Shown: piece by piece, positions 5,434-29,399 of the stretch
Position numbering within the stretch: the first letter of the stretch is position 1
Layout: every line of letters begins with the position of its first letter
DNA from: Chloroflexota bacterium
GTDB taxonomy: Bacteria > Chloroflexota > Dehalococcoidia > Lucifugimonadales > UBA3495
Length of the DNA stretch: 35,431 bases
Assembly (NCBI GenBank): GCA_028875055.1
Contig: JAPPGG010000004.1
Span: forward strand, 2,952-38,382
Direction of reading: 5' to 3'
Translations under genes and position numbers: made by a program
The notes under the pieces: generated by a model
The model's input: the letters and a program-made list of their open reading frames with translations, nothing else
The model's database searches: none
Told to the model about the DNA's origin: nothing

Positions 5434-8400
5434 CTAGAACCTGGGACGACGCCTGGCCCGGAAGAACAACCACAGGCTCAGGGCCAGCAGGGTCCCGCCC
5501 AACGCCATTATCAGAACAGGCCAGACCGACATGCCCTCTTCGTCCACTGTCTCCGGCACCAGCTGCGCTTGCTGCAATAGCGGCCCCGGTGTGGGCTCAG
5601 TTTCCACCGACACTCCTGGCTCCGGCGTAGGCGTCACCACGCTGCCCGCTTCGGCCACCGCCTGCGGGACCAGTAGAGGGAGCTTGAGGTCCGCCCGCTC
5701 GGCCTCCGGTGCTGGTTCCGGTTGGGTCGTAGGAACGGGAGTCGCGCCGGGGGCTGGAACGGGCGCCGGGGTAGGCGAGGCCTCCGGAATCGGCTCATCC
5801 ATGCCGAACAGCGCCCCCAGGGTCGTCAGGACAAAGCAGTCCAGCGACGTCAAGCCCGCAACCCTGATGGTTATCCACCCATCATCGCCAAGGGTGAAGT
5901 TGAACTGCACCGGCCTCCACTCGCCCGTGGCGTAATCCCGGGCATAGACCGTGAACGCTCCCAGCCGGTGGGCCTCACGCACCACCTCTGCGCTGCCAAA
6001 GTCCTCGGCCTTCATTCGGAATTGTATGGTTGCCGCTTTGACCAGCGATACGCTGGTTTCCGGCGTACCCCAGTTGTCGTAGAAGCCAAGCGCCAGGGCC
6101 GCCTGCACCTCCTCGTCGCCGGCATCAAAGGGGCACCGCGTCAACGACGAATCCACCCTTACCCAGTAGTACACCGAGCGCGACCCCGCCGGGAATGTAA
6201 CCCCCGCGGACCCGTCGGGAGTCCAGACAGTGGTCTCCTCTCCGGGCCCAACCCTGCCGGCGGCCTGGGTTGCCGGATTGTATATCGGGACCTCCAGCAC
6301 ATCGGTCAAGTCTATGGCGATTTCAATGGCATCCACGGCGCCCCGACCATCGGACACGGTCATAACGACTTCATAGGTAGCCTTGCTCTCCAGGTCCAGC
6401 GTTGCCCTGGTAATCAACTGACCGTTTGTACTATCCAGGGCGAAGGCGTCGGCGTCGGTTCCGCCCAGCTCGTAAGTCAGCTCGTCTCCATCCGGGTCTA
6501 TCGCCGTTACCGGCTCACCGATGTAAACGCCCAGCCCAGTATGTTCCTCCACGTCCCGGGAAGCCCTGACCCCCTCTTCAAAATAGGGCGGGCGGTTCTG
6601 GTCGCTCGAGCCGCCGGTGACGCCGCCGCCCCCGATGATGGTGTAGGGTGGGGACGGAAGCCTGGGCGCAGGCGTTGGAACAGGTGTCGGCGCAGGTGTC
6701 GGCTGCAGTGGAGGCGGAGGAGGGTCATTGTCGTCGTCGCGAATCGTTACTGTCGTGGAATTTACAGTCCCCGCAGCCACTTTTGTCGGCATGCTCGCCC
6801 CAAAGGACACCGTGACGGTTTCATTGCTCTTGTCCGAATCGTGGTTCGCTGTGAAGGCAAGTGTTATTGAATCATCTCCTGGAACAAACTCCACGGACGA
6901 TGGGATGGAAAAGTCGGAATCGGGTCCGGTACTACTTGCCGCATCAAAGCTTATAGACTGCCGACGGTCGGCGGTCGGATCGAGATTCACCCTGATGCTA
7001 ACCCTGCTGCCTTCCCTCACCGAGTAGCCTGAAGAGGCAAAACTGGCAGTTAAATTGAACCAGTCCGCTTCCGGCTTGGCCTGGGTCCTGCCTCTAACGG
7101 TTTCGGAAAATGACCCCCCTCCCTCGGAGTTCTCCGCGTTTACCATTACCTCGTACTCGGTATCGGGCAAGAGGTTGTCCAGCTCTTTCTGGGTATTGGA
7201 TGTTTCTTCCTCGGCCCAATTGTTGGTGCCCTGTGGAGAGTATTTCAGATTATAGCCACTGATGTCTGGACCATCGTTCTCGGGCGGCGACCACTTGACC
7301 ATAAGCCCGCTCTTTTCATTGCCGGGGCTGGGCATCACCGCGTTGATGGTTACCTTGCCTGGTGGCTCGTTGACGTCCACCACATTGATCGTAACCACTA
7401 TGGTATCGGTCAGATTGGACGGGTCGGTGGCCTTGACCGTAACCGTATAGCTCTGCTTGGTCTCATAATCCAGGGCCACTTTGGTCTGAATTTGTCCGCT
7501 GGACTGTACTATGTCAAAGCTGGCGGCATCAGTCCCCTCCAGGGTGTAGGTCAGCGCCTTCCTCTCGGGGTCAGTTGCCCTGACCGGCTGCCCCACATTG
7601 GCCCCGATGGATGCATTCTCCGCCACCTGGCGGGTCACGCTGGCTTGCGAGAACTCTGGCGGTTGCGGGTCCGGCGGCCTGGCGTCAACCCGGTTGGTCG
7701 TAATGCCGTGGGCCGTCTTGCCACTGCCCTGGCCGTCAGTGTATGACGCCGTCGCCCGCAGGTACTTGTTAACGTCGGCCGTCACCGGCGTGTAGGTCGC
7801 GCTGGTGGCGCCCGTCCCCGTGGCGTTGGTCCAGGCGCCGCTCCGGGACGAAGACGTGGCCCACTGCCAGGTCAGTCCGGTCACACCGTCATCGTCGTCT
7901 TCCAGGGAAGCCCCCAGTTGCTGGTCTTCCTGCGGCTGTTCATTGGAGAAGGTAACCACCCCACTCTCATCAACGTTGTTCACGCTGATTGTTATGTCCA
8001 TGGTGTCGTCGGCGGTGATGTTGGGGTCACCGACATCATCAACGCCATCCCGCACCAGGATAGTTACCGAGTAGCTGCTCTTGGTCTCATAATCCAGCGC
8101 GTCCTTGGTGCGCAGCTGGATGCCGTTGCTGTGACTCTGCGTGAAGTTGAAAGAATCCTTGTCGGTCCCGCCCAGCACGTAGGTCAGCCTGTTGGCAGCA
8201 TCCTCGTCGGTGGCCTTGAAGGGCGAGCCGATGTTGCGGCTGGCCGGCGTGTTTTCGTCAACCGATACCGTGCTCGTTTCGGAGCTGAACTTCGGGTCTT
8301 CGTTGACGTTGATGACGGTAACCGTTACCGACAGCGTAACGCTCTGTTCGGTGTTGTCCGTTACCTTGACCGTAATGTTATGGACGTTGTTAGCGCCCGA

Positions 8401-11400
8401 ATCCTTGGCATCTTCAAAGTCTGGGGGACTCAGGAACTCAAGAACTCCGCCCGTGATGCTGAACAGGGCTTCGTCCACCCCTTCCAGGTCCCACGTAATT
8501 GCAGTCCCCTCCGGGTCTTTCGCGGAGAACCGGTGCACCGGAGCGGAGTTGTTCTCCTCATAGCTAAAATTGGGGTCGGCGGTATCCTCGTCCGTCTCAC
8601 CGGAGATCACCGGGTCCTCGTCCACGTCGGTTACGGTTATGGTTACGGACAGGCTGTCGGTAAACTCGTCGTCAGAAGCCTGCACCGTAATGTCAAAAGT
8701 GTACTTTTGGGAGCCGTCCACCTCATGCTCGTAATCCGGCGGCTCCAGGAAAGTCAGAACGCCCGTGCTCTCGTCTATTTCAAAATAAGCGTCGTCGTCA
8801 CCGGACAGCGACCACTTAACCGTGTCCCCGGCGTCGGGGTCGGTGGCCGAGAAGTCCGCCACGTCTCCCGTACCGTTCTCCTCGTAATCGTCGATGGTGA
8901 TGGTGTCGATAACAGGGGTCTCATTGACGTCCGTTACCGTTATCGACACATCCAGAGTCTGAACGTGGTTGGGGTTGCCATCCGTGGCCTGGATGGTCAT
9001 CTCGTAAACATTGTTTGTGTCGCTGTCCTTCCGGGTTTCAAAGTCGGGGGATGACCGGAAGATGAGGTCCGCCGAAGAAGCACCGGCGTAGAGGGGATTC
9101 AAGGCAAACAGGTCCTTATCGTCTCCCAGCAACTGCCACTCAATATCGTCGTCTTCCGGGTCGGCAGCATGGTAGGTGGCAGCGGTGTTATGGGAGTTCT
9201 CCAAGTAATCGAACTCAGTGGGCCCGGAAATCATCGGAGTCTCATCCTCGTCCGACACGATGATCGTGACGTCCATTTCGTCGAATTTGCCGCCCTCATC
9301 GGTGGCCTTCACTGTTATCTCGTACTCGTTATCTGTGTTGGCGTCGGCGGCGTTCTCCCGGTCCGGCGGGTTCTTGAAGGTCAGCTGCCCCTTCATCGGC
9401 TCATTGGCGGGTTTCGTTATAGCGTTGAAATCGCCAGCGTCATCTCCGGACAGGGACCACGTAATCGTGGTGTTGGCATCCTGGTCGGCGACCTCAAAGG
9501 TGACTACCGTGCCGGAGCCGCCCTCGGCGAAGGTGACTTCCTCCACCACGGTAAGCGCCGGAGCTTCATTTACGTTGGTTATTGTTATCCTTACGGCCTG
9601 GGTCTCCGCGTTTACGCCGTCAGACGCGACAACCGTAACTTCGTAAACGTTGTCCGTGTTATGGTCCTTCTTGTCCTCAAAGTCGGGAATGGTGTTGAAG
9701 GTAAGCACGCCGGCCTGGCTGATGGACAGCTTGTCGTCGTCGTTGCCTTCCAGGTCCCACTGTACGGTTTCGCCCTCCGGGTCCGTGGCTTTGTAAGTTG
9801 CTACGGTATCGGTGCTGTTTTCCGGATAGTTCCTGGATGCGGTCCAGGTGCCCTCCCTGACTATCGTTTCGTTTTCTCCGGTCACCGTAACGGTAACGTC
9901 CAGGCTGCCGGTATTTACGCCATCGCTGGCGTTTACCTTCACCTGGTACACATTGGTGCCGGCGGCGCTTCCCGGGGTCTCGAAGTCGGGCGCCGCCTTG
10001 AACGACAGTTCCCCACTGGAGGAAATCTCGAACTTGTTCCCGTCGTCCCCGGTGGGAGTTTCCCAGCTAGTGTTTTCCCCTTCAGGGTCTTCAGCGGTGT
10101 AGGTTGCGATACTGTCCGTGCTGCCTTCAACCACGGAAGGGCCGGTATCACCGGTTACCACGGGGTCCTCGTCAATGTCCACCACTCTTACGGTAACAAC
10201 CATCTCTGCGTCATTGACGCTGTCCGACGCTTCTATCGTCACCTCGTAGTCGTTGTCGGCATCCTGGTCCCGTTCGTCCTCATAGTCCGGCGGAGAAATA
10301 AACTTGAGCATTCCCGCGTTTGAAATGGTGAACAGCGCCGCGTCGTCGCCCGACTTGGTCCAGGTAATGGTATTGCTGTCCTGGTCGGTGGCTACGAAGG
10401 TGGCCACACCCGATGTGTTGTTCTCCGCAAACTGGATGGTCTGGGAGCCGGTATTCCCCTTGTGGGTGATCACCGGGGGCTCGTTAACGTCGGTAATGTT
10501 AATCGTAACCTCCAGCTCGGTGGCGTTGGACGCGGAGTCGGTGGCGACCACCGTCACCAGGTACTGGTGGTCCGGGTTGTTGGAGTCTTCGTAGTCCGGA
10601 ACCGAGTCGAAATTGAGCACGCCGGTCTGCGAGTCTATGGACAGTTCGTCATCGTCATCGATGTCCTTCAGCGACCAGGTTATGGCGTCGTTCTCCGGAT
10701 CCGTGGCGTTGTAGTCCTCCACGTCCAGGGCGCTGCCCTCCACGTAGTCAATGGTTGACTCGCCGATGATGGTTGGCGGTTCGTTGACGTCAACCACGTT
10801 GATTTCTAGTACCCTGGTGGAGTTGTTACCGCTGGCGGTGACTATCAAAGTAATCTCGTAATGATTGTCCCCGTCGTCGTCTTTGGGGGTCTCGTAATCC
10901 GGGGTCGGGTCGAAATAGAGGTCGGCGTTTTCGTTGTTGGACCCCGATTCGTCCAGCCTGAAGTGGTCCCGGTCAATGCCGGAAATGGTCCAGACAAAGC
11001 TGCCTCCCTGGGCATCAAAGGCGGCAAGCCTGCCCACCGCGTTAGAGTCGTTCTCATAGTGGTCTATGGGACTGGCCTTGCCGGAGATGGCAACACCTTC
11101 TATTACGTCGGTTACGGTAACCAGCACACACCTGGCCTTGACGTTGGGGTCCTCCGGCGTCACCCCAACGAAGACTTCATAAACGTTGTCCCCGTCGGAG
11201 TCGGTGGGGACCTCATAGTTCGGCGGATTGATGAACGTCAGTTCACCGTTGTTGTCCAGCCGGAAGTCATCGGCATCGGCGCCGGACAGCGCGAGGGTCT
11301 GGGAGCCGGGAGAGGTATAGGTGCCGATGGCATCCCCCGAGTTCTCCTCCAGGGACACCAGGTCGGGACCCTGGACGGAGGCGCCATCGCTGACGTCTAG

Positions 11401-12777
11401 AACCCGCACGGTGATGTCTATGTGTGAGTCTTCGTGGGTAAGCCCGGTATCAGGATAAACCCGGAAAGTGTATCCGCTGTTGCCATCCTTGTCCGAGGGA
11501 GCGTCGAAGTCTGGTGGCTTAATGAAGTTCAGAATGCCGTCGCTGTCAATGGTGAAATAGGCGCCGTCGCCGCCGCCGATCTTCCAGGCGGCAAGTTGCG
11601 CTCCCCCGCGACGGGCGGAGTCCAGGTCGGCAACCAGCCAGGTGCCGTTCTCGTAATAGTCCAGTTGCAAACTCTTGGTGGTCGGGTAGGTATCAATCCC
11701 CTTGACCGTCGTAACCGGCACGTCGACCACGCCGTCAGGAACGTGAGGAGTGAGGAACAGCTTCATAGTAGCGCTGGCCCCACTCAGGTCGGTGGCCGTT
11801 ACGTGCACCTCGTACCGGTTCGCGGTGTAATCCAGCGATTGCTTCGTCAGCAGGTCACCATGATAGCCAGTTAGCTCGTTGACAATTTCAAACTGGCTCG
11901 CATCGGGACCGGAAATGGAGAAGAGATAGTCATCGCCGGTGTCACCGTCATTCGCGGTGATGGGGTTGTAGATGTACGATCCAGCCGGATAGTAGGGCCG
12001 GAGAGTCTGGCAGGAGTCCTCGCCGCATCCATTGGTTTCTCCGGGGCTGAGGACCGGGGCGCTGTTGCTGTCAGACCTCTCCCTTACATAAATGGCCGGG
12101 GCAAAAGACGCTGTTTTCCCGGAGCCTCGATTGTCAGTGTAGGTAGCCGTAGCCCTCAAGTACTTCAGTGCATCATTGGCCGTCGGCGTATAGCTGGGTT
12201 CCGTGGCGTCACTGATGTCGGAAAAGGTACCGGTCTTGCTGTCTGAAGAGGACCACTGCCAGGTGACGCCGGAAACGCTGCCATCGGGGTCGGAGAGGGT
12301 GGCGGTAACCTCCGTTCCAACCTGCGTCCGCCGCCAATCGGGCGTTACTTTTCCACTTTCCTCCACGTCGATGACGTTGATAGTTACACTGATGGAGTCC
12401 GAGTCTCCACTGGGGTCGGTGGCCACCACCACTACCGAGAAGCTGGACTTACGCTCGTAGTCCAGCTTGTTGCCAACCCAAAGCTGGCCCGTTTCCGAGT
12501 CGATGCCGAAGTGGGTCTTCGCGCCGTTCTGAATGGAATAGACCAGGTCGTCGCTTTCGTCGTCTGTAGCGGTTAACGGAGATCCGATGTTGGTGTACGC
12601 GGAGGTATTCTCGTCAACGGATCGGGTCGCCGTTTGCGCCGAGAACTCGGGCGCGTTATTGGCCTGGGCGAAAGCGTGGCCGGAAAGAAGGGTGGCAACC
12701 CCCAGTGACACCAATAGGGCCAGGGCGAGGAAAAACTGGGTGAATGGTGATTTGCCAAGAAACGGACTGAGGTGCAT
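5434..12777 (-). CDS. Giant secreted cadherin-repeat surface protein
   Basis: A 2447-residue predicted adhesin. The start is the ATG at 12777: GGGAGGAG lies just upstream, and a further in-frame ATG 18 nt earlier falls before that site. A signal peptide is clear (hydrophobic FFLALALLVSLGVATLL, then FAQA). About 16 cadherin-like repeats of roughly 100 residues follow, each with an acidic (Y/D)xEN near the start, an AxDxD-type calcium motif and a closing DVNExP linker. Two repeats are interrupted by Ig-like inserts with TWQWSSS / TWQWATSSS cores. Then come an FN3 domain, a Calx-beta-like domain (ending TVTIRDDD), a Pro-rich linker, one more cadherin repeat, a distinctive module of about 150 residues (VGPGEETTVWTPDGSAGVTF...), a second Pro-rich linker and a final membrane helix with RARRRPRF tail. 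It is likely a calcium-stiffened, membrane-anchored surface fibre for adhesion. Confidence 0.9.
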   Translation of the reverse strand: MHLSPFLGKSPFTQFFLALALLVSLGVATLLSGHAFAQANNAPEFSAQTATRSVDENTSAYTNIGSPLTATDDESDDLVYSIQNGAKTHFGIDSETGQLWVGNKLDYERKSSFSVVVVATDPSGDSDSISVTINVIDVEESGKVTPDWRRTQVGTEVTATLSDPDGSVSGVTWQWSSSDSKTGTFSDISDATEPSYTPTANDALKYLRATATYTDNRGSGKTASFAPAIYVRERSDSNSAPVLSPGETNGCGEDSCQTLRPYYPAGSYIYNPITANDGDTGDDYLFSISGPDASQFEIVNELTGYHGDLLTKQSLDYTANRYEVHVTATDLSGASATMKLFLTPHVPDGVVDVPVTTVKGIDTYPTTKSLQLDYYENGTWLVADLDSARRGGAQLAAWKIGGGDGAYFTIDSDGILNFIKPPDFDAPSDKDGNSGYTFRVYPDTGLTHEDSHIDITVRVLDVSDGASVQGPDLVSLEENSGDAIGTYTSPGSQTLALSGADADDFRLDNNGELTFINPPNYEVPTDSDGDNVYEVFVGVTPEDPNVKARCVLVTVTDVIEGVAISGKASPIDHYENDSNAVGRLAAFDAQGGSFVWTISGIDRDHFRLDESGSNNENADLYFDPTPDYETPKDDDGDNHYEITLIVTASGNNSTRVLEINVVDVNEPPTIIGESTIDYVEGSALDVEDYNATDPENDAITWSLKDIDDDDELSIDSQTGVLNFDSVPDYEDSNNPDHQYLVTVVATDSASNATELEVTINITDVNEPPVITHKGNTGSQTIQFAENNTSGVATFVATDQDSNTITWTKSGDDAALFTISNAGMLKFISPPDYEDERDQDADNDYEVTIEASDSVNDAEMVVTVRVVDIDEDPVVTGDTGPSVVEGSTDSIATYTAEDPEGENTSWETPTGDDGNKFEISSSGELSFKAAPDFETPGSAAGTNVYQVKVNASDGVNTGSLDVTVTVTGENETIVREGTWTASRNYPENSTDTVATYKATDPEGETVQWDLEGNDDDKLSISQAGVLTFNTIPDFEDKKDHNTDNVYEVTVVASDGVNAETQAVRITITNVNEAPALTVVEEVTFAEGGSGTVVTFEVADQDANTTITWSLSGDDAGDFNAITKPANEPMKGQLTFKNPPDRENAADANTDNEYEITVKATDEGGKFDEMDVTIIVSDEDETPMISGPTEFDYLENSHNTAATYHAADPEDDDIEWQLLGDDKDLFALNPLYAGASSADLIFRSSPDFETRKDSDTNNVYEMTIQATDGNPNHVQTLDVSITVTDVNETPVIDTITIDDYEENGTGDVADFSATDPDAGDTVKWSLSGDDDAYFEIDESTGVLTFLEPPDYEHEVDGSQKYTFDITVQASDDEFTDSLSVTITVTDVDEDPVISGETDEDTADPNFSYEENNSAPVHRFSAKDPEGTAITWDLEGVDEALFSITGGVLEFLSPPDFEDAKDSGANNVHNITVKVTDNTEQSVTLSVTVTVINVNEDPKFSSETSTVSVDENTPASRNIGSPFKATDEDAANRLTYVLGGTDKDSFNFTQSHSNGIQLRTKDALDYETKSSYSVTILVRDGVDDVGDPNITADDTMDITISVNNVDESGVVTFSNEQPQEDQQLGASLEDDDDGVTGLTWQWATSSSRSGAWTNATGTGATSATYTPVTADVNKYLRATASYTDGQGSGKTAHGITTNRVDARPPDPQPPEFSQASVTRQVAENASIGANVGQPVRATDPERKALTYTLEGTDAASFDIVQSSGQIQTKVALDYETKQSYTVTVKATDPSNLTDTIVVTINVVDVNEPPGKVTINAVMPSPGNEKSGLMVKWSPPENDGPDISGYNLKYSPQGTNNWAEEETSNTQKELDNLLPDTEYEVMVNAENSEGGGSFSETVRGRTQAKPEADWFNLTASFASSGYSVREGSRVSIRVNLDPTADRRQSISFDAASSTGPDSDFSIPSSVEFVPGDDSITLAFTANHDSDKSNETVTVSFGASMPTKVAAGTVNSTTVTIRDDDNDPPPPPLQPTPAPTPVPTPAPRLPSPPYTIIGGGGVTGGSSDQNRPPYFEEGVRASRDVEEHTGLGVYIGEPVTAIDPDGDELTYELGGTDADAFALDSTNGQLITRATLDLESKATYEVVMTVSDGRGAVDAIEIAIDLTDVLEVPIYNPATQAAGRVGPGEETTVWTPDGSAGVTFPAGSRSVYYWVRVDSSLTRCPFDAGDEEVQAALALGFYDNWGTPETSVSLVKAATIQFRMKAEDFGSAEVVREAHRLGAFTVYARDYATGEWRPVQFNFTLGDDGWITIRVAGLTSLDCFVLTTLGALFGMDEPIPEASPTPAPVPAPGATPVPTTQPEPAPEAERADLKLPLLVPQAVAEAGSVVTPTPEPGVSVETEPTPGPLLQQAQLVPETVDEEGMSVWPVLIMALGGTLLALSLWLFFRARRRPRF

Positions 12778-13511
12778 GCCCACTCCTCCCATCAACCCGG
12801 GAACACATCAAGCAATTAAAGCTTCCGGACGGGACGGCGGGACGACCGGACAACAGGGTTAATCAGAGGGGCGGGCGCCACCTCACGTCTTCCACTACCG
12901 TTGCGCCCTTGTTGCGAATCTTCCGGCAGGACCTGGTTAGCCCCTTTTTTAATGGACTCGCCGTGTCAATTTATCAGTTCTATGCCTCGCAGGCATACGC
13001 GCTGGGCATACTGTTTTCGGTCACTTTGTACAACGGAAGTTCCACGGCAAAGTGGCGTTGCATCCCTGGCGGTCGAGAATCCTGGGGCCCGCATCGCTTC
13101 CCCAATTCCTCCTTGTGCTGACATTTCCCCCTTCCCGGCCTGCCTGACCCCTCAATACCATTACCCCATGGACAATCGAGTTGAAGCAACATTAACCCCG
13201 GGCAAAATGCGTGCTGATTCTGCAGGCCCGCTCCGGCGGGAGTCGCATCGCGCTGGAACCGCGTGAAAGCTTGAACTCCTGTTCCAGCGCCCGGTTCTGG
13301 ACCCTGGATTTTTCTTGAGGGAAGGAGCCGGGCTTGTCCACTTCGTGAAGCGTGAGCCTCGTGGCAATTCAGCATGACAGTCCCTTGAGACGCCATCGCC
13401 AATGCAAACCTGTCGGAAATCCATACTTTCCGACTACCGTATCAGCTTCCCAGGTGAATCACTGAAAAAATTCTCAAAATCTGGCTCGACTTCCCTCCAG
13501 CGCTAATGTCT

Positions 13512-14809: not shown

Positions 14810-16708
14810 CTACTGCTCGTACCACCCCGACGCGAAGATGTAGCCGTCATGCAGCACGGCAAAGGTGTGTTTGCGCTGCTCCTGCCCCGTACCCGGGTTG
14901 ATTATGACGTAACTGCTCCAACTGCCCGACTCCGTAGCCGCCAGCAGGTCATCCCCATAGAAATAGCCGGTGGCATCCACTCTCAGGCTGGGGTCCCGGT
15001 CCCGCAGGTTGGGGTTATGATGGCCGATGGTGACCCCGGTCTCGGCATCCACTATGAACGCATACCACTGGCCGTCCACGCTCTCCCTGGTGTTGTAGTA
15101 GGCGATGGTGTCGTCCAGGCCCACGGCATCGTAAAGGTTGAGCGCCTGTCGGACGAATGACTGGGTGAAGGCTTCCACATCCGCCTTGCTGGGGCCTTCC
15201 TCGTACCACCCCGAGCCAAACAATATACCGTCTCGTATGACCATCCAGGAATGCTTGGTTTCCACCCCTCCGGTTGCCGGATTGGTGAATGTATAGTCAA
15301 ACCAGGCCCCGTCTTCATCAGCCAGGGCCGCAATCGCCGAGCCGGCCGGGTAGCCCAGGGGGCCGGTGATTTCGGAACTGTGGGTGCCTATTTGCCCCGG
15401 ATTTACCCCATGGCCAATAAGGCTGCTGGACTCTGTATCTCCCACAAAGAGATACCATTGTCCATCCACGCTTTCCGGGGAATTGTAGTAGGCAAGGGTG
15501 CCTTCCAGCCCAACTGCGTTGTAGAGGTTGATTGCCTGTTGAACGTAGGCCTTGGTGTAAGCCGGGCCGTCCGTCTTGCGCGGCCCGTCCTCGTACCAGC
15601 CGGTACCGAAGGTCAGGCCATCGTGGACAACCATCCACGAATGCTTGGTCTCCGCCGCCCCGGTGGCAGGGTTCAGGAAGGTGTAATCAAACCAGGCGCC
15701 CTCAGGCTTCGCGGAGGCGGCGACCGCCACGCCGGCGGGAAAGCCGTTCGGCCCGACGGCTTGTGATACATGCTGACCCGCATACGCAGGGTTGGCGCCG
15801 TGGGCCAGGAAGTTCTCGTCCTCATCAATGATGAATATGTACCAGGGTCCGTCAACGCTGGCCTTGCTGTTGTAATAGTCAGCGGTGTCCTCCCGCCCGA
15901 GGGCGTTGTACAGGTTGATGGACTGCTGGACCAGCGCCCTGGTGTATGCCGGGCCGTCGGTCCTGCTGGGCCCCGGCTCGTACCAGCCCGAGCCGAACAT
16001 TATCCCGTCGTACCTGACCACCCACGAATGCTTCGTTTCCACCTGACCCGTGGCCCGGTTCAGGAAGGTATGATCGAACCAGCTGCCCTGCTCACTGGCA
16101 ACGGTGTAACTCACGGTCCCGGATGGGTAGCCGTTGGACCCGAAAATGTCGTGCACGTTCTTGCCCACGAGCTCAGTAATGCCATGTCCAACCATGGTCT
16201 CGTTCTCGTCTGCTATGAACATGTACCACTGCCCGTCAACGCTTTCGGGAGTGCTGTAGAAGGCTGCAGTGGCTTCCAGGCCTTCCTCCTCGTACATCTT
16301 TATGGCCTGTTCGACGTAGTACCTTGTGTATTCGGCGGGCATCCACTTGGGCGGCGCATGCGATTCTGTCTCGGCCACCACCGTTTCCCGAATGTCGGCC
16401 GTCAACTGGTCCAGCAGCTCCTCCAGTTCAGCCTCGCCCACAGAGCCCGCTTCCCCTGCCGGCCCTACGGCCCCAGCTGCACCAGCTGCACCAGCCGGGC
16501 CGACGGGTCCCGCCGGTCCTGTTGCGCCTGCGGGGCCAGCAGGCCCCTGGGGCCCCGTCGCGCCTGCCAAGCCTGCCGCGCCTGCCACGCCGGCTTCGCC
16601 CTGGGGCCCCGGTGGTCCCTGCTCACCAGCCTGACCGGCAGCGCCCTGGCAGGCCACAAGAGCCAGCGCCAGGACAAGTATCAACATCAAGAACAAAGGC
16701 ACACGCAT
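14810..16708 (-). CDS. Collagen-stalk lipoprotein with four Cache domains
   Basis: A 632-residue predicted surface lipoprotein. The signal peptide ends in a lipobox (LVAC, Cys20 lipidated). It is followed directly by about 24 uninterrupted Gly-X-Y triplets (roughly residues 22-93), rich in GPA and GPQ, a bacterial collagen-like stalk. After a short acidic helix come four homologous single-Cache-like units of about 125 residues (from about 120, 241, 365 and 491). Each contains an ESVDGQWY-type motif, [23 protein letters not shown] and GSGWYE. The fourth is the most divergent ([19 protein letters not shown]). Cache domains bind small molecules such as carboxylates and amino acids. No transmembrane helix or signalling output follows, so it may capture ligands or act with an unlinked receptor. 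Ribosome site AGAGG, 6 nt before the ATG. Confidence 0.88.
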
Positions 16709-16911: not shown

Positions 16912-17976
16912 CTACCAGGATTTCAGGACCGGCAGCACCTCTTCGGCGAATAGCTTCAGGCTCCGCCCCGCTACCTCCGGGGGTGTGCCGCCAAAGCGGA
17001 AGGAGACATTCCATTCGAAGTCGCCGAGCAACTCCTTCCTCTCCTCCAGCCCCCGCAGAATCTTGTCGGGAGTGCCCCAGCTGGCCGCCTTCATGAACCC
17101 CTCCACCGCCCCTTCCAGGCCGGCCTCACGGGCGATGGCCGCCTTCTGCTGGTAGGCGTCGTAGCCCTTGACGGACCCGAAATGGTCGCCCAGGAACTCG
17201 TAGTGATGGAAGTTGCTTTCCACGAACTTCCCCTGGTACTGCCGGGCCTCCTCCTCGCACTGGGCCAGGTCTTCGCCGCAGATGACAAACTCGGTAATCA
17301 TCAGGGCGGGCGGCTCGGTTCCGTGGAATTCCCGGTGCAGGGCGCGGCCCCGTTCGATGCCAGGCATGCGCATCTCCCAGGGCCTGTCGGCGAACATGAT
17401 GATGTGGGCGCCCAGCTGGGCCGCCGAATGAACGGAATCATCGCTGGCGGCCACGGCATAGATGCGGCCGTCAAAGGAGTGTTCGGGCCGCGGCCGGATT
17501 TCCGTTCGCGCCTGCGGGTAGTGAGGGCCGTCCCCCTCGATGTACCCCGTCCGCAGCGCCTCCACTATCATGGGGGCCGCCTCGTCAAAGCGGGCGCGGG
17601 ACTCGTCCATGCTGATGCCGAAGGTCTCAAACTCCCGCCTTGCCAGGCCTCGACCGAAACCCAGCCTCAGGCGTCCACCGCTGAGCATGTCCAGGACGGC
17701 GGCGTTCTCCGCCACCCGCAGGGGGTTGTGCCACGGCAGGATGACCGCCGCCGTGCCCACGTCAATGTGCGGGTGCCTGGCCGCAATGTGGGTCATCAAC
17801 TGCAGGTTATCGGGGACAAAGGAGTAGTCGTTGAAGTGGTGCTCGGCAGACCACAGGCAATCGAATCCCGAGTCGGCGGCAATTTCGGCCAGCCTCAGTT
17901 CCTCTTCCCACATCTGCGCGTCCGAACCCTTCTCCCAGCCGTAGCTGGAGAAGATCATCATCATTCCCACGTCCAT
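16912..17976 (-). CDS. LLM-class flavin-dependent monooxygenase (luciferase-like) 1
   Basis: A 354-residue TIM-barrel protein of the bacterial luciferase family (PF00296). Family marks: FDCLWSAEHHFNDYSFVPDN near residue 38, the HIDVGTAAVILPWHNPLRVAE strand-loop, and LSGGRLRLGFGRGLARREFETFG, which contacts the flavin phosphate. Enzymes of this class oxidise organic substrates with FMNH2, or use F420; the substrate cannot be read here. Start: ATG at 17976 with AGAAGGAG 7 nt upstream. An SDR gene lies upstream on the same strand, 182 nt away across a repeat, so cotranscription is possible but uncertain. Confidence 0.88.
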   Translation of the reverse strand: MDVGMMMIFSSYGWEKGSDAQMWEEELRLAEIAADSGFDCLWSAEHHFNDYSFVPDNLQLMTHIAARHPHIDVGTAAVILPWHNPLRVAENAAVLDMLSGGRLRLGFGRGLARREFETFGISMDESRARFDEAAPMIVEALRTGYIEGDGPHYPQARTEIRPRPEHSFDGRIYAVAASDDSVHSAAQLGAHIIMFADRPWEMRMPGIERGRALHREFHGTEPPALMITEFVICGEDLAQCEEEARQYQGKFVESNFHHYEFLGDHFGSVKGYDAYQQKAAIAREAGLEGAVEGFMKAASWGTPDKILRGLEERKELLGDFEWNVSFRFGGTPPEVAGRSLKLFAEEVLPVLKSW

Positions 17977-22114: not shown

Positions 22115-23305
22115 TTACTTGCCGTTGCCGCCGTTGCCGTTGCGGAAGCGGGGGATAACCTCCTTGCCGAACAGCTCGATGGACGACATCACCTTCTCGT
22201 GGGGGATGGTCTCCGTCTGCATGATCATCATTACCTGGTCCACGCCGATATCCTCGTACATCTGGACGGCGGTGGCGCAGCTGTCCGGGTCGCCGGCGAT
22301 GATGACGCCCCGGTCGGCCAGGGTATTGGCGTCCAGCTGGGCGATGGCGGCCCGGGCGGCGCCAGGACCGGCGTCCAGGGAGATACCCGACTCCTCGGCC
22401 TGTTGCCGGTGGGCGTCGTCAGACTGGCGCAGCCAGCGGCCGAAGTCGGCCTGCAGGTGGTCGGGGACGCCGCCCCAGGCCTCCAGCAGTTCCTCGTAGG
22501 CGCCGATGCGGCCGGCAATGTAGGGCTTGTCGGGCCCGAAAAAGGTTTTCATGGACAGGGCGGCCAGCTCGCGGGCCTCGTCGTTGTCCTTGCCGCAGTA
22601 GGCGTGGACGTTGTTGCCCCAGAACTCGGTGGCGAAAGCGCCCACCGGATTCACGTTCTTCAACGCTTCCCGGTAAATTTTGACCTGCTCGGCCAGCACT
22701 GAAGTTGCGTAAGAGGCGGAGGACAGAACGCCCAGGCCCTTTTCCGCCGCCAGCCGGAAGCTGTCCTGCTGGGTGCAGGCCAGGTACATGCGGGGATGGG
22801 GCTGCTGGACCGGCTTGGGCAGCACCCGCCGCTTGGGCACCTGCCAGTGCTCGCCTTCCCACTCGAACTCGTCCGACTGCCAGATTTGCGGCAGCATGGC
22901 AATGGACTCTTCCCACAGGGAGCGGGTGTTGCGGGGGTCGATGCCCAGGCCCGTCTGCTCGTAGGCGTTGGAACGGCCAGTGCCGAACTCCACCCGTCCG
23001 TCGGTAAGCTGGTCCACCAGGGCCACGCGCTCGGCGACGCGCACGGGATGGTGGTAGGGGAGGATGCAGACGCCGTAGCCGATGCGGATGTTCTTGGTGA
23101 TGCGGCTCAGCGCCCCGAACATGGCGTCCTGGCTGGGCGAACCGGAAAAGCCGGTCAGGAAGTGGTGCTCGACGAACCACAGGTTGTCGAACCCCACCTG
23201 GTCGGCCAGTTCGCACTGGGCCAGGGTCTCCTTGTACAGCGAGTTCCAGTCAATTTCAGTGCCCTCATAGGGCCGCTGGCACTCAAACAAAAGGCCAAAT
23301 TGCAT
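22115..23305 (-). CDS. LLM-class flavin-dependent monooxygenase 2
   Basis: A 396-residue luciferase-like TIM-barrel flavoprotein. I choose the ATG at 23305 because AGGAGG lies 7-8 nt upstream and the protein then starts MQFGLLFECQRPY, the usual first strand; a longer frame to 23377 has no such support. Motifs: VGFDNLWFVEHHFLTGFSGS, NIRIGYGVCILPYHHPVRVAE, LTDGRVEFGTGRSNAYEQTG and RRVLPKPVQQPHPRMYLACT. It is only distantly similar to the two other LLM proteins in the window, so these are old paralogues rather than a recent duplication. Reaction: FMNH2- or F420-dependent oxidation of an unknown organic substrate. Confidence 0.88.
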   Translation of the reverse strand: MQFGLLFECQRPYEGTEIDWNSLYKETLAQCELADQVGFDNLWFVEHHFLTGFSGSPSQDAMFGALSRITKNIRIGYGVCILPYHHPVRVAERVALVDQLTDGRVEFGTGRSNAYEQTGLGIDPRNTRSLWEESIAMLPQIWQSDEFEWEGEHWQVPKRRVLPKPVQQPHPRMYLACTQQDSFRLAAEKGLGVLSSASYATSVLAEQVKIYREALKNVNPVGAFATEFWGNNVHAYCGKDNDEARELAALSMKTFFGPDKPYIAGRIGAYEELLEAWGGVPDHLQADFGRWLRQSDDAHRQQAEESGISLDAGPGAARAAIAQLDANTLADRGVIIAGDPDSCATAVQMYEDIGVDQVMMIMQTETIPHEKVMSSIELFGKEVIPRFRNGNGGNGK

Positions 23306-23483
23306 AAAGGTTCCTCCTGCAGGGGTGACGTGGGGGGTTGGTGGGATTATAGCGTATTTTGCAGCACCTGAGTTCAATGGTGCTCTATGGTGCGCTCTTC
23401 GTTAGATGGGCTTATAGTTATAGATGGATCTATCCTATTCCAAGCAATAGTGAAGTCGGTCGAAAGTGGAGATATCCCTGCCC

Positions 23484-25004: not shown

Positions 25005-26120
25005 TTACTTAAAATGCGGAATCACATCCTCGCTCAGGCACTTGAGCGTGTCCATTACCACTTCCCGGGGGACGGACGCGGTCCAGTTGCATTCGAACAT
25101 TATCTCGTCGGTGGTGAAGGCTTCGCGGAACATGTGGATTTTTTCCACCACCTCTTCCGGTGTGCCGAAGAGGTTGACCTCCTCGGTGGCCTCGGGACCG
25201 GCGCTGCCGGCGTCGGTGCTGCCGATGGCGATGCGGCCGGCGTAGTACAGGCGCGCCAGGTTCATCAGGTGTTCCACCCGCTCGTCCGCCTTCTTCTGGG
25301 TGTCGGCCACCAGGGTGGGCACCCTTACCACGGTGGTGGGCTCGCCCTCGTGTCCGGCGTCAATGTAAGCATTGCGGTAGGCCTTGACGTCCTCGCGCAG
25401 GACGGCGGAGCCCCGCAAGTTGTGGGGTGAACTGCCGGCGCCGATGGCGATCTTGTAGCCCTGCTCGCCCATGGGGACAAAGCTCTCCTGGCTGTCCACG
25501 GGCAGCAGCATGGGCAGGGGCTTTTGCACGGGCTTGGGAATGCTCATATAGCCCTCGTAGAAGGCGGGATAGTTGAAATACTTCCCCTCAAAACCGGAAA
25601 ACCGGTCCTCGTTCCACAACTGCTTCAACAACTCCAGGTACTCGAAGAAGTACTCCCTACGCTCATCGGAACCCCGGGTGCGGGCCCCGGGCCCGTAAAT
25701 GAACCGTCCCTCGCTGATCTGGTCCACGATAGCCACCTGCTCCGCCACCTGGAAGGGGTCCTCGGGCTGCAGGTTGTCGAAGGCGTATCTCTCGTGGGGC
25801 AGCGCCCGTTCCGATACCGTCTCGCCGGGAAGCCGGAGGGTGGGACGGTGGATGGAGGTGCCAATCCGGATGTTCCTGGTGTGGTTGGCAACGATTGCTG
25901 ACAGCATTATGGGCTGGGGGTCCATGCTGCCCTGGATGGAGAAATGGCTGCCGCCGAACCAAACGTAGTCCCAACCGGCGTCCTCGATGTGGTCTATCTT
26001 TTTGAAGTTCTGCTTGTATGCCGCTGCTTCCCGAAGCTTGCCGCCCTGATATTCCGGGTCCCACGGCACTTTTCCGCCGTCATAGACGGCGTTCCAGGTG
26101 GTAAACAGTCCAAAATCCAT
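25005..26120 (-). CDS. LLM-class flavin-dependent monooxygenase 3
   Basis: A 371-residue luciferase-like flavoprotein. Start: ATG at 26120 with AGGAGG 7 nt upstream. It begins MDFGLFTTWNAVYDGGK and shows HIEDAGWDYVWFGGSHFS, NIRIGTSIHRPTLRLPGE, EGRFIYGPGARTRGSDERRE and MSIPKPVQKPLPMLLPVDS. The WFGGSHF segment replaces the WFVEHHF seen in LLM-2, so the substrate-side loop differs. An insertion (VSERALPHERYAFDNLQPEDPF, paraphrased position about 115-136) lengthens the loop after strand 3. Function within the class is unknown. The terminator at 24956 closes the unit. Confidence 0.87.
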   Translation of the reverse strand: MDFGLFTTWNAVYDGGKVPWDPEYQGGKLREAAAYKQNFKKIDHIEDAGWDYVWFGGSHFSIQGSMDPQPIMLSAIVANHTRNIRIGTSIHRPTLRLPGETVSERALPHERYAFDNLQPEDPFQVAEQVAIVDQISEGRFIYGPGARTRGSDERREYFFEYLELLKQLWNEDRFSGFEGKYFNYPAFYEGYMSIPKPVQKPLPMLLPVDSQESFVPMGEQGYKIAIGAGSSPHNLRGSAVLREDVKAYRNAYIDAGHEGEPTTVVRVPTLVADTQKKADERVEHLMNLARLYYAGRIAIGSTDAGSAGPEATEEVNLFGTPEEVVEKIHMFREAFTTDEIMFECNWTASVPREVVMDTLKCLSEDVIPHFK

Positions 26121-28423: not shown

Positions 28424-28469
28424 TGCCCTGACAAGGGTTCGGGCCCATTCATAGCTTGGGAGTTACACG

Positions 28470-29399
28470 ATGCCTATTGAACTGCGAGACCTGGTGAGAA
28501 ACCCTGAAACCACTCCCTTCTCACGCCTGAAGTACCTGGTGCGCCAGTCCGACGAAGACGTTACCCGCTTCATGAACGAACTGTTCAACCTGGCGGCTTT
28601 GGCCAAGGAAGAGGACGACTGGCGTCCGGTGGAACAGTTCCTTAACCGGTGGGAGGAAATCCTCACCGATCGGCTGGAACTGCCCATGGCCTTCGACACC
28701 ACGCCCTGGGCCCCCTTCACCAAGCCCCTGTCCCAGGCCCGTATCGCCGTCCTGACCACCGGCGGCATCCACACTTGCGACCAGGAGCCCTTCAACGTGG
28801 ACGGGGACTGGAGCTACCGCGAGATTCACCTGGATACCCCCCTTGAAGACTTCCGCGTCGCCCACACCCACTACGACACCAACGGTGTCGCCGAGGACGT
28901 GGACTCGGTCTTCGCCATTCACCGCCTGCAGGAACTGGCAAAGGAGGGCATCGTTGGCGAGGCCCACAGTCCCACCTTCAGTTTCATGGGCTACATTTAC
29001 GACGTGGCGGGCCTGATCGAGGTTACAGCGCCGGAGGTGGCCCAGCGCCTGAAGGACGAAAGGGTGGACGGCGCGGTCATCGGCACCACTTGACCCCGCT
29101 GCCATCAGTCCGGTGGACTGATCGCCCGGGCCATAGAATCGGCCGGCGTGCCCACGGTAGTGGTAATGGTGGACCGGCGGAAAGCGGCCACAATGTCAGT
29201 GCCCCGGGGCCTCATCCTGCGCTTCCCCTTTGGCCGCCCCTTCGGCGCCCCCGGCAACCCCCAGCAGCAGCGGGTAGTCCTGGAAGACGCCCTGCAAGTC
29301 CTCGCCACCGCCACGGAACCGGGCCAGATCGTGGCATCACCCTACCGGTGGAGACGGGAGGATTACGGGGAGATTTTGAGGGAGAAGCATGGGGATTGA
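28470..29399 (+). CDS. GrdB/PrdB-like selenoprotein with Sec208 (UxxCH)
   Basis: A 309-residue protein of the glycine/sarcosine/betaine/D-proline reductase selenoprotein B family, if the in-frame TGA at 29091-29093 is read as selenocysteine. Before the TGA: ARIAVLTTGGIHTCDQEPFN, GDWSYREIHLDTP, HTHYDTNGVAEDVDSVF, RLQELAKEGIVGEAHSPTFS and ERVDGAVIGTT. The same frame continues after it with PRCHQSGGLIARAIESAGVP, VPRGLILRFPFGRPFGAPGN and QQQRVVLEDAL to a TGA at 29397. The motif T-T-U-P-R-C-H-Q aligns with the CPVCHQ redox motif of cysteine homologues, so Sec replaces the first Cys. A SECIS-type hairpin follows immediately. Likely a redox enzyme or reductase-related protein; the substrate is not known. 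Start: ATG with GGGAG 7-8 nt upstream. Shorter than GrdB, closer in size to the PrdB-like forms. Confidence 0.88.
29091..29125 (+). promoter_or_regulatory. Bacterial SECIS element with its UGA
   Basis: TGA at 29091-29093. After 10 nt, an 8-bp perfect stem ATCAGTCC (29104-29111) pairs with GGACTGAT (29115-29122), closing a GGT loop (29112-29114); two further pairs (29101/29125 and 29102/29124) lie beyond one mismatch. The loop begins with G and lies 18 nt after the UGA, both within the usual bacterial SECIS rules (G among the first loop bases, 16-37 nt from the UGA). SelB would bind here. Confidence 0.8.

Follow-up and report, generated by a model that had tools for sequence, protein, structure and literature searches.

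Two surveys (PMC1088965, 2005; PMC2398784, 2008) rank selenoproteins classed as the proline reductase subunit PrdB, with a UxxC motif, with the most abundant selenoprotein families of the sea. In them, 42 Sec-containing PrdB sequences were found in the Sargasso Sea (PMC1088965), then 235 in GOS, where the family also comprised 110 Cys sequences (PMC2398784). As this marine abundance was reported in 2005 and 2008, the family as such is already known. In the wider superfamily, FarB has been proposed to cleave C-F bonds reductively in a role other than amino-acid fermentation (PMC10838667).

The gene described here lies in a window of 35,431 nucleotides (the whole stretch of DNA that was analysed), taken from a 3.75 Mb draft genome of 75 contigs that is 98.4% complete. 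The organism is a relative of the SAR202 cluster within Chloroflexota/Dehalococcoidia; the closest named relatives are SAR202 cluster bacterium bin22 (93% identity), which comes from a sponge metagenome (PMC5649159), and Dehalococcoidia and Chloroflexi MAGs. The frame runs on the forward strand from an ATG at 28470 to a terminal TGA at 29397-29399 and contains a single internal TGA. Read directly from the sequence, a Shine-Dalgarno-like GGGAG (28458-28462, +) stands 7 nt 5′ of the ATG. The coding sequence (28470-29399, +) corresponds to 309 amino acids with Sec208, and is delimited by orthologues with identical start, TGA and end. The recoded codon 208 occupies 29091-29093 (+) in the context VIGTT-U-PRCHQSGGLIARAIE, followed by Cys211 of the U-P-R-C motif (29100-29102, +), an invariant column of our alignment A1 and the putative resolving thiol.

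With translation table 11, the gene is called as a 207-residue protein, with an orphan frame behind it and the UxxC motif lost, just as the initial annotation had predicted for ordinary gene calling. Such calling thus truncates the protein directly ahead of its active site.

The internal TGA is found at the identical codon in all 29 loci retrieved from other genomes of the order, at identities from 97% down to about 40%, where the surrounding residues read TTUPRCHQ, UPICNRS and similar. The genome's own paralogue likewise holds a TGA at that codon, and the TGA is also kept in relatives from Armatimonadota, Walliibacteriota and Nitrospirota. In comparisons of the window gene with nine relatives, the claimed frame shows Ka/Ks of 0.03-0.19 in the part 3′ of the TGA (Ks being saturated in one pair), against roughly 0.9-4.6, mostly well above 1, in the two shifted frames. 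Upstream of the TGA it ranges from 0.06 to 0.35, and the downstream value is the lower one in 9/9 pairs. A nonsense mutation, or a TGC or TGG miscalled as TGA, would also give the 207-residue table 11 product and the orphan frame behind it. However, a pseudogene or a sequencing error is very unlikely given the conserved TGA and the strong purifying selection downstream: the same codon would have to be wrong in about 30 other assemblies, and the hairpin that follows it covaries. We regard this explanation as practically dismissed.

As the initial annotation had proposed to check, homologues with cysteine align it exactly on the TGA. TGC or TGT takes the place of the UGA in 18 homologues: in Chelatococcus and another Rhizobiales genome the site reads CPVCHQSVGL with codon TGC, while 16 other Chloroflexota copies have TGC or TGT within CPLCHR. 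The CxxCH motif that had been recognized at the site stands in part. Its [U/C]-x-x-C portion is invariant, but the histidine is not conserved, being asparagine in many relatives and threonine in the paralogue; the invariant motif is therefore [U/C]-x-x-C.

Selenocysteine and cysteine forms are mixed in the family, even inside a single genus. In genus g241, locus L131 has Cys where L139 and L140 have Sec; apart from this residue, all three read the same [C/U]PLCHRTVVAIQRE. Another candidate Sec/Cys pair, G566 and G572, was rejected since the DNA shows both to be Cys. On a tree of 85 sequences the two states need three changes, compared with 16.7 in shuffles. In family f73, SelA is matched in 0/3 Cys-form genomes and in 2/2 TGA-form genomes. 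There are exceptions: in families f81 and f98 the majority of Cys-form genomes retain SelA, perhaps because other selenoproteins depend on it. In a few TGA-form drafts (e.g. G053, G436 and G516) we obtained no SelA match; incompleteness of the drafts is a potential, though not a certain, reason. The mixture provides natural pairs in which the benefit of selenium could be tested.

What lies just 3′ of the UGA is, by its predicted fold, a bacterial-type SECIS hairpin with compensatory changes (29101-29125, +). With the T of the TGA taken as base 1, it begins at base 11 and reads ATCAGTCC-GGT-GGACTGAT, with two more G-C pairs below. The inner stem pairs 29104-29111 with 29115-29122 around the loop 29112-29114 (GGU), and the outer pairs join 29101-29102 to 29124-29125. 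Its folding energy is -19.8 kcal/mol over 46 nt (z -2.24). As an Rfam search of the window at gathering thresholds returned no family, the hairpin was tested directly by covariation. Across 34 sequences, 95.9% of cells are paired, against merely 16-45% at slid control positions. Two-sided changes occur in ten cells, compared with a mean of 3.1 in shuffles that leave relatedness in place; for this reason the slid control and a synonymous double change weigh more. The latter is found at pair 16-30 of locus L052, where C-G has become A-U with both codons synonymous (CGG/AGG for Arg, CTG/CTT for Leu). Pair 15-31 changes from T-A to C-G in seven sequences, and L076 has a compensatory change from T-A to A-T. 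In the Rhizobiales Cys homologues the hairpin is not predicted, although they encode nearly the same peptide there, CHQSVGL.

The initial annotation also implied a selenocysteine system in this organism and called for a search for its genes. All four components are present in the same genome: a tRNA-Sec with anticodon UCA (67.5 bits; ARAGORN agrees), SelB (345 bits, cut-off 242), SelA (E 5e-135) and SelD (E 2e-115). The selD gene (L021, G000:C49:5814-6737) carries an in-frame TGA of its own, within CAGUAAK, which we take to be the usual Sec site of SelD. The tRNA bears on another explanation of the internal TGA, namely its genome-wide reassignment (e.g. to Trp) or its read-through by a near-cognate tRNA, with which an in-frame TGA is compatible in principle. 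In addition to the presence of tRNA-Sec(UCA), homologues have Cys rather than Trp at the site, and TGA terminates both the selenoprotein gene itself and its upstream neighbour. A codon that doubles as the true stop of the same gene argues against a changed code, which we consider scarcely conceivable here.

Altogether, the conserved TGA, the Ka/Ks values, the covarying SECIS, the Cys homologues and the Sec machinery bear out the proposed read-through; selB and tRNA-Sec are there, and homologues carry Cys or Sec at the position. We thus hold with high confidence, on this comparative sequence evidence, that UGA codon 208 is read as selenocysteine to give one 309-residue protein of the GrdB/PrdB superfamily, and that this is a genuine selenoprotein gene. 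Decoding would involve SelB and tRNA-Sec(UCA), steered by the hairpin just downstream.

The same genome encodes a second PrdB-like selenoprotein (L002, G000:C68:173849-174493), with a TGA in TPTUPLCTHT, an open frame of about 424 aa and a C-terminal part that is longer; in the order, many homologues of similar length also have one in-frame TGA. SelA matches above the cut-off occur in 241 of the 250 genomes of the order. About 40 of them, with E above 1e-30, are weak and could represent paralogues or fragments, whereas roughly 200 are solid; from these some 200 of 250 genomes, selenocysteine use seems widespread in the order. SelA and SelB have been found to co-occur in most sponge symbiont bins and to be absent from most reference genomes (PMC5649159). 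A full-text search of open-licence papers returned none that joins 'selenoprotein' with 'SAR202', and the viral contigs searched held no relative of the selenoprotein. A SAR202-type lineage of marine and sponge Chloroflexota is here shown cleanly to use selenocysteine.

The initial assignment to a GrdB/PrdB-like family is right at the superfamily level. The protein passes the cut-offs of PF07355 (GRDB; 46.9 bits, cut-off 22), whose C-terminal part matches the segment upstream of the TGA, and of NCBIfam TIGR01918 (68.6 bits, cut-off 65.45). It does not extend to either name, as the equivalog cut-offs of PrdB and GrdB are both missed. The PrdB model TIGR04483 reaches 180.2 bits (E 4.3e-53), below its cut-off of 300, over profile positions 18-236 of 238; the read-through protein therefore aligns to nearly the whole of PrdB, and the claim that family-like sequence continues beyond the TGA is confirmed. 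The GrdB model TIGR01917 gives 65.3 bits, far below its cut-off of 602, and the GrdB, GrdF and GrdH models together (TIGR01917, NF040794, NF040795) give 58-65 bits against cut-offs of 602-800. These profile scores place the protein nearer PrdB (180 bits) than GrdB (65).

The pyruvoyl subunit family to which PrdA and GrdE belong (PF09338) has 0 matches in the 98.4%-complete draft genome that carries the gene. The same model finds matches in 24 of the 250 genomes of the order, and in 4 of the 29 whose orthologue is full-length or nearly so; in none of the four do the two genes share a contig. Proline racemase (PF05544), which would supply D-proline, was not matched in the genome either, while three control genomes were positive; GrdA (PF04723) had no match in it, but none in any control genome. 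The PrdA and racemase genes could sit in gaps of the 75-contig draft; the partner genes are also missing from nearly all relatives with an orthologue. The partner subunit may also be one unrelated to PF09338.

These results bear on whether the protein works with a pyruvoyl partner, either as a true PrdB in D-proline reductase or as a GrdB in glycine, betaine or sarcosine reductase. The nearly full-length TIGR04483 match at 180 bits speaks for it, as does the classification of such sequences as proline reductase PrdB in the GOS and Sargasso surveys (PMC2398784, PMC1088965). Yet the score is far under the cut-offs of PrdB (300) and GrdB (602), neither PF09338 nor proline racemase was found in a 98%-complete genome, and 25 of the 29 orthologue-bearing genomes have no PF09338 match. 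We judge this reading highly improbable. As the protein reaches neither equivalog cut-off and the search for the pyruvoyl partner found none, the names PrdB and GrdB are unsuited; since the genome lacks a match to the partner subunit that proline and glycine reductases need, the label 'proline reductase' probably misdescribes the role. The protein is probably not a subunit of D-proline or glycine reductase, judging from its sequence and its genome, and a stand-alone UxxC selenoenzyme is the best reading of it.

No operon is conserved beyond genus level. The upstream Na+/H+ exchanger is common to the closest MAGs only, and other gene clusters are mostly genus-level. An acyl-CoA synthetase-like gene follows the selenoprotein in three relatives and is also in the vicinity of a Cys copy from Rhizobiales. 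Several copies have luciferase-like monooxygenases nearby; neither association recurs widely enough to be informative. The window itself contains three luciferase-like monooxygenases (PF00296) on the reverse strand, at 16912-17976, 22115-23377 and 25005-26120. Further reverse-strand genes encode proteins of 2453 aa (5434-12795), containing cadherin and fibronectin III domains, and of 632 aa (14810-16708), containing collagen-like repeats and Cache domains.

We modelled the protein with AlphaFold2 (mean pLDDT 87.8, pTM 0.85). About residues 1-75 (28470-28694, +) form a clade-specific helical extension ahead of the TIGR04483 match, which starts at residue 78; its helices span residues 5-8, 15-20, 28-48 and 52-67, with pLDDT of 59-86. 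Besides the SAR202 clade, a copy from Armatimonadota has this extension, while most of the more distant Chloroflexota homologues align just from about residue 65-75. The PrdB-like α/β domain (residues 78-296; 28701-29357, +), delimited by TIGR04483 and the model, has pLDDT mostly of about 90. In it, residue 208 is placed between strand 201-205 and helix 209-224. Several polar residues are invariant in the alignment (R117, H132, D143, R246). A sequence-profile search of solved structures gave nothing significant, and Foldseek against the PDB gave no match at E<=0.001. A likeness to the LacI core (VIA-align best Z 8.9, rmsd 3.7, 143 aligned) was set aside, as it probably reflects a common α/β arrangement alone.

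The protein would be a soluble enzyme working without PrdA or GrdE, with Sec208, at a helix N-terminus right after a β-strand, as its catalytic nucleophile. Its selenolate would attack an electrophilic substrate or a disulfide; Cys211 would then resolve the intermediate into an Se-S bond, to be reduced by thioredoxin-type proteins. As a relative of PrdB and GrdB, the protein may use the same Sec chemistry. Because a pyruvoyl subunit was not found, the substrate probably has a good leaving group already, for reductive C-X cleavage, or is a thiol or disulfide. The confidence stated above covers the selenoprotein reading alone; the substrate class is argued from analogy with GrdB/PrdB chemistry and from the UxxC motif. 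On that analogy, reductive C-X cleavage or detoxification is a reasonable, if tentative, proposal. General thiol-disulfide chemistry is possible but more doubtful. The protein would then be a thiol-disulfide oxidoreductase or peroxide detoxifier performing no reductive cleavage of small molecules, an alternative that concerns the substrate part only. UxxC resembles thioredoxin-like redox motifs, and was grouped with them in PMC1088965; moreover, the gene is solitary, with no consistent pathway neighbours. However, the invariant R117, H132, D143 and R246 suggest a putative substrate pocket, and, as a weaker point, no thioredoxin-like chain is among the structure matches listed.

Clostridial PrdB (TIGR04483) shares with our protein a domain alignment of near-full length and the Sec in UxxC. 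The differences lie in the score (180 bits versus 300), in the extra N-terminus of about 75 residues, and in PrdA and proline racemase, which were not found here. With GrdB, GrdF and GrdH of glycine, sarcosine and betaine reductase, the likeness consists of the C-terminal half of PF07355, the region of the Sec motif and the TIGR01918 subfamily cut-off, which the window protein passes; it is, however, far shorter (309 versus about 435 aa), and GrdE was not found in the genome. FarB, the GrdB-like subunit of the proposed fluoroacetate reductase in Cloacibacillus porcorum MFA1, likewise belongs to the GrdB family and is predicted to contain Sec, but is encoded in an operon with the GrdE-like subunit FarE (PMC10838667), which has no counterpart at the window gene.

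The closest comparison is with the 'PrdB' family of the Sargasso and GOS surveys. Matched by their description, which includes the PF07355 superfamily, UxxC, Sec and Cys forms and abundance in sea water, the window protein most likely belongs to the same family. That work inferred D-proline reductase from homology, whereas here neither the pyruvoyl partner nor proline racemase has a match in the host genome, and the protein is extended at its N-terminus. That such proteins can be partnerless is probably new with respect to these accounts, whose available text was not found to state it. Marine PrdB-like selenoproteins may thus be mislabelled as 'proline reductase'. We give an even chance to the broader proposal that these abundant marine selenoproteins constitute a separate, partnerless family of SAR202 and other Chloroflexota, carrying out a Sec-dependent reductive reaction outside amino-acid fermentation.
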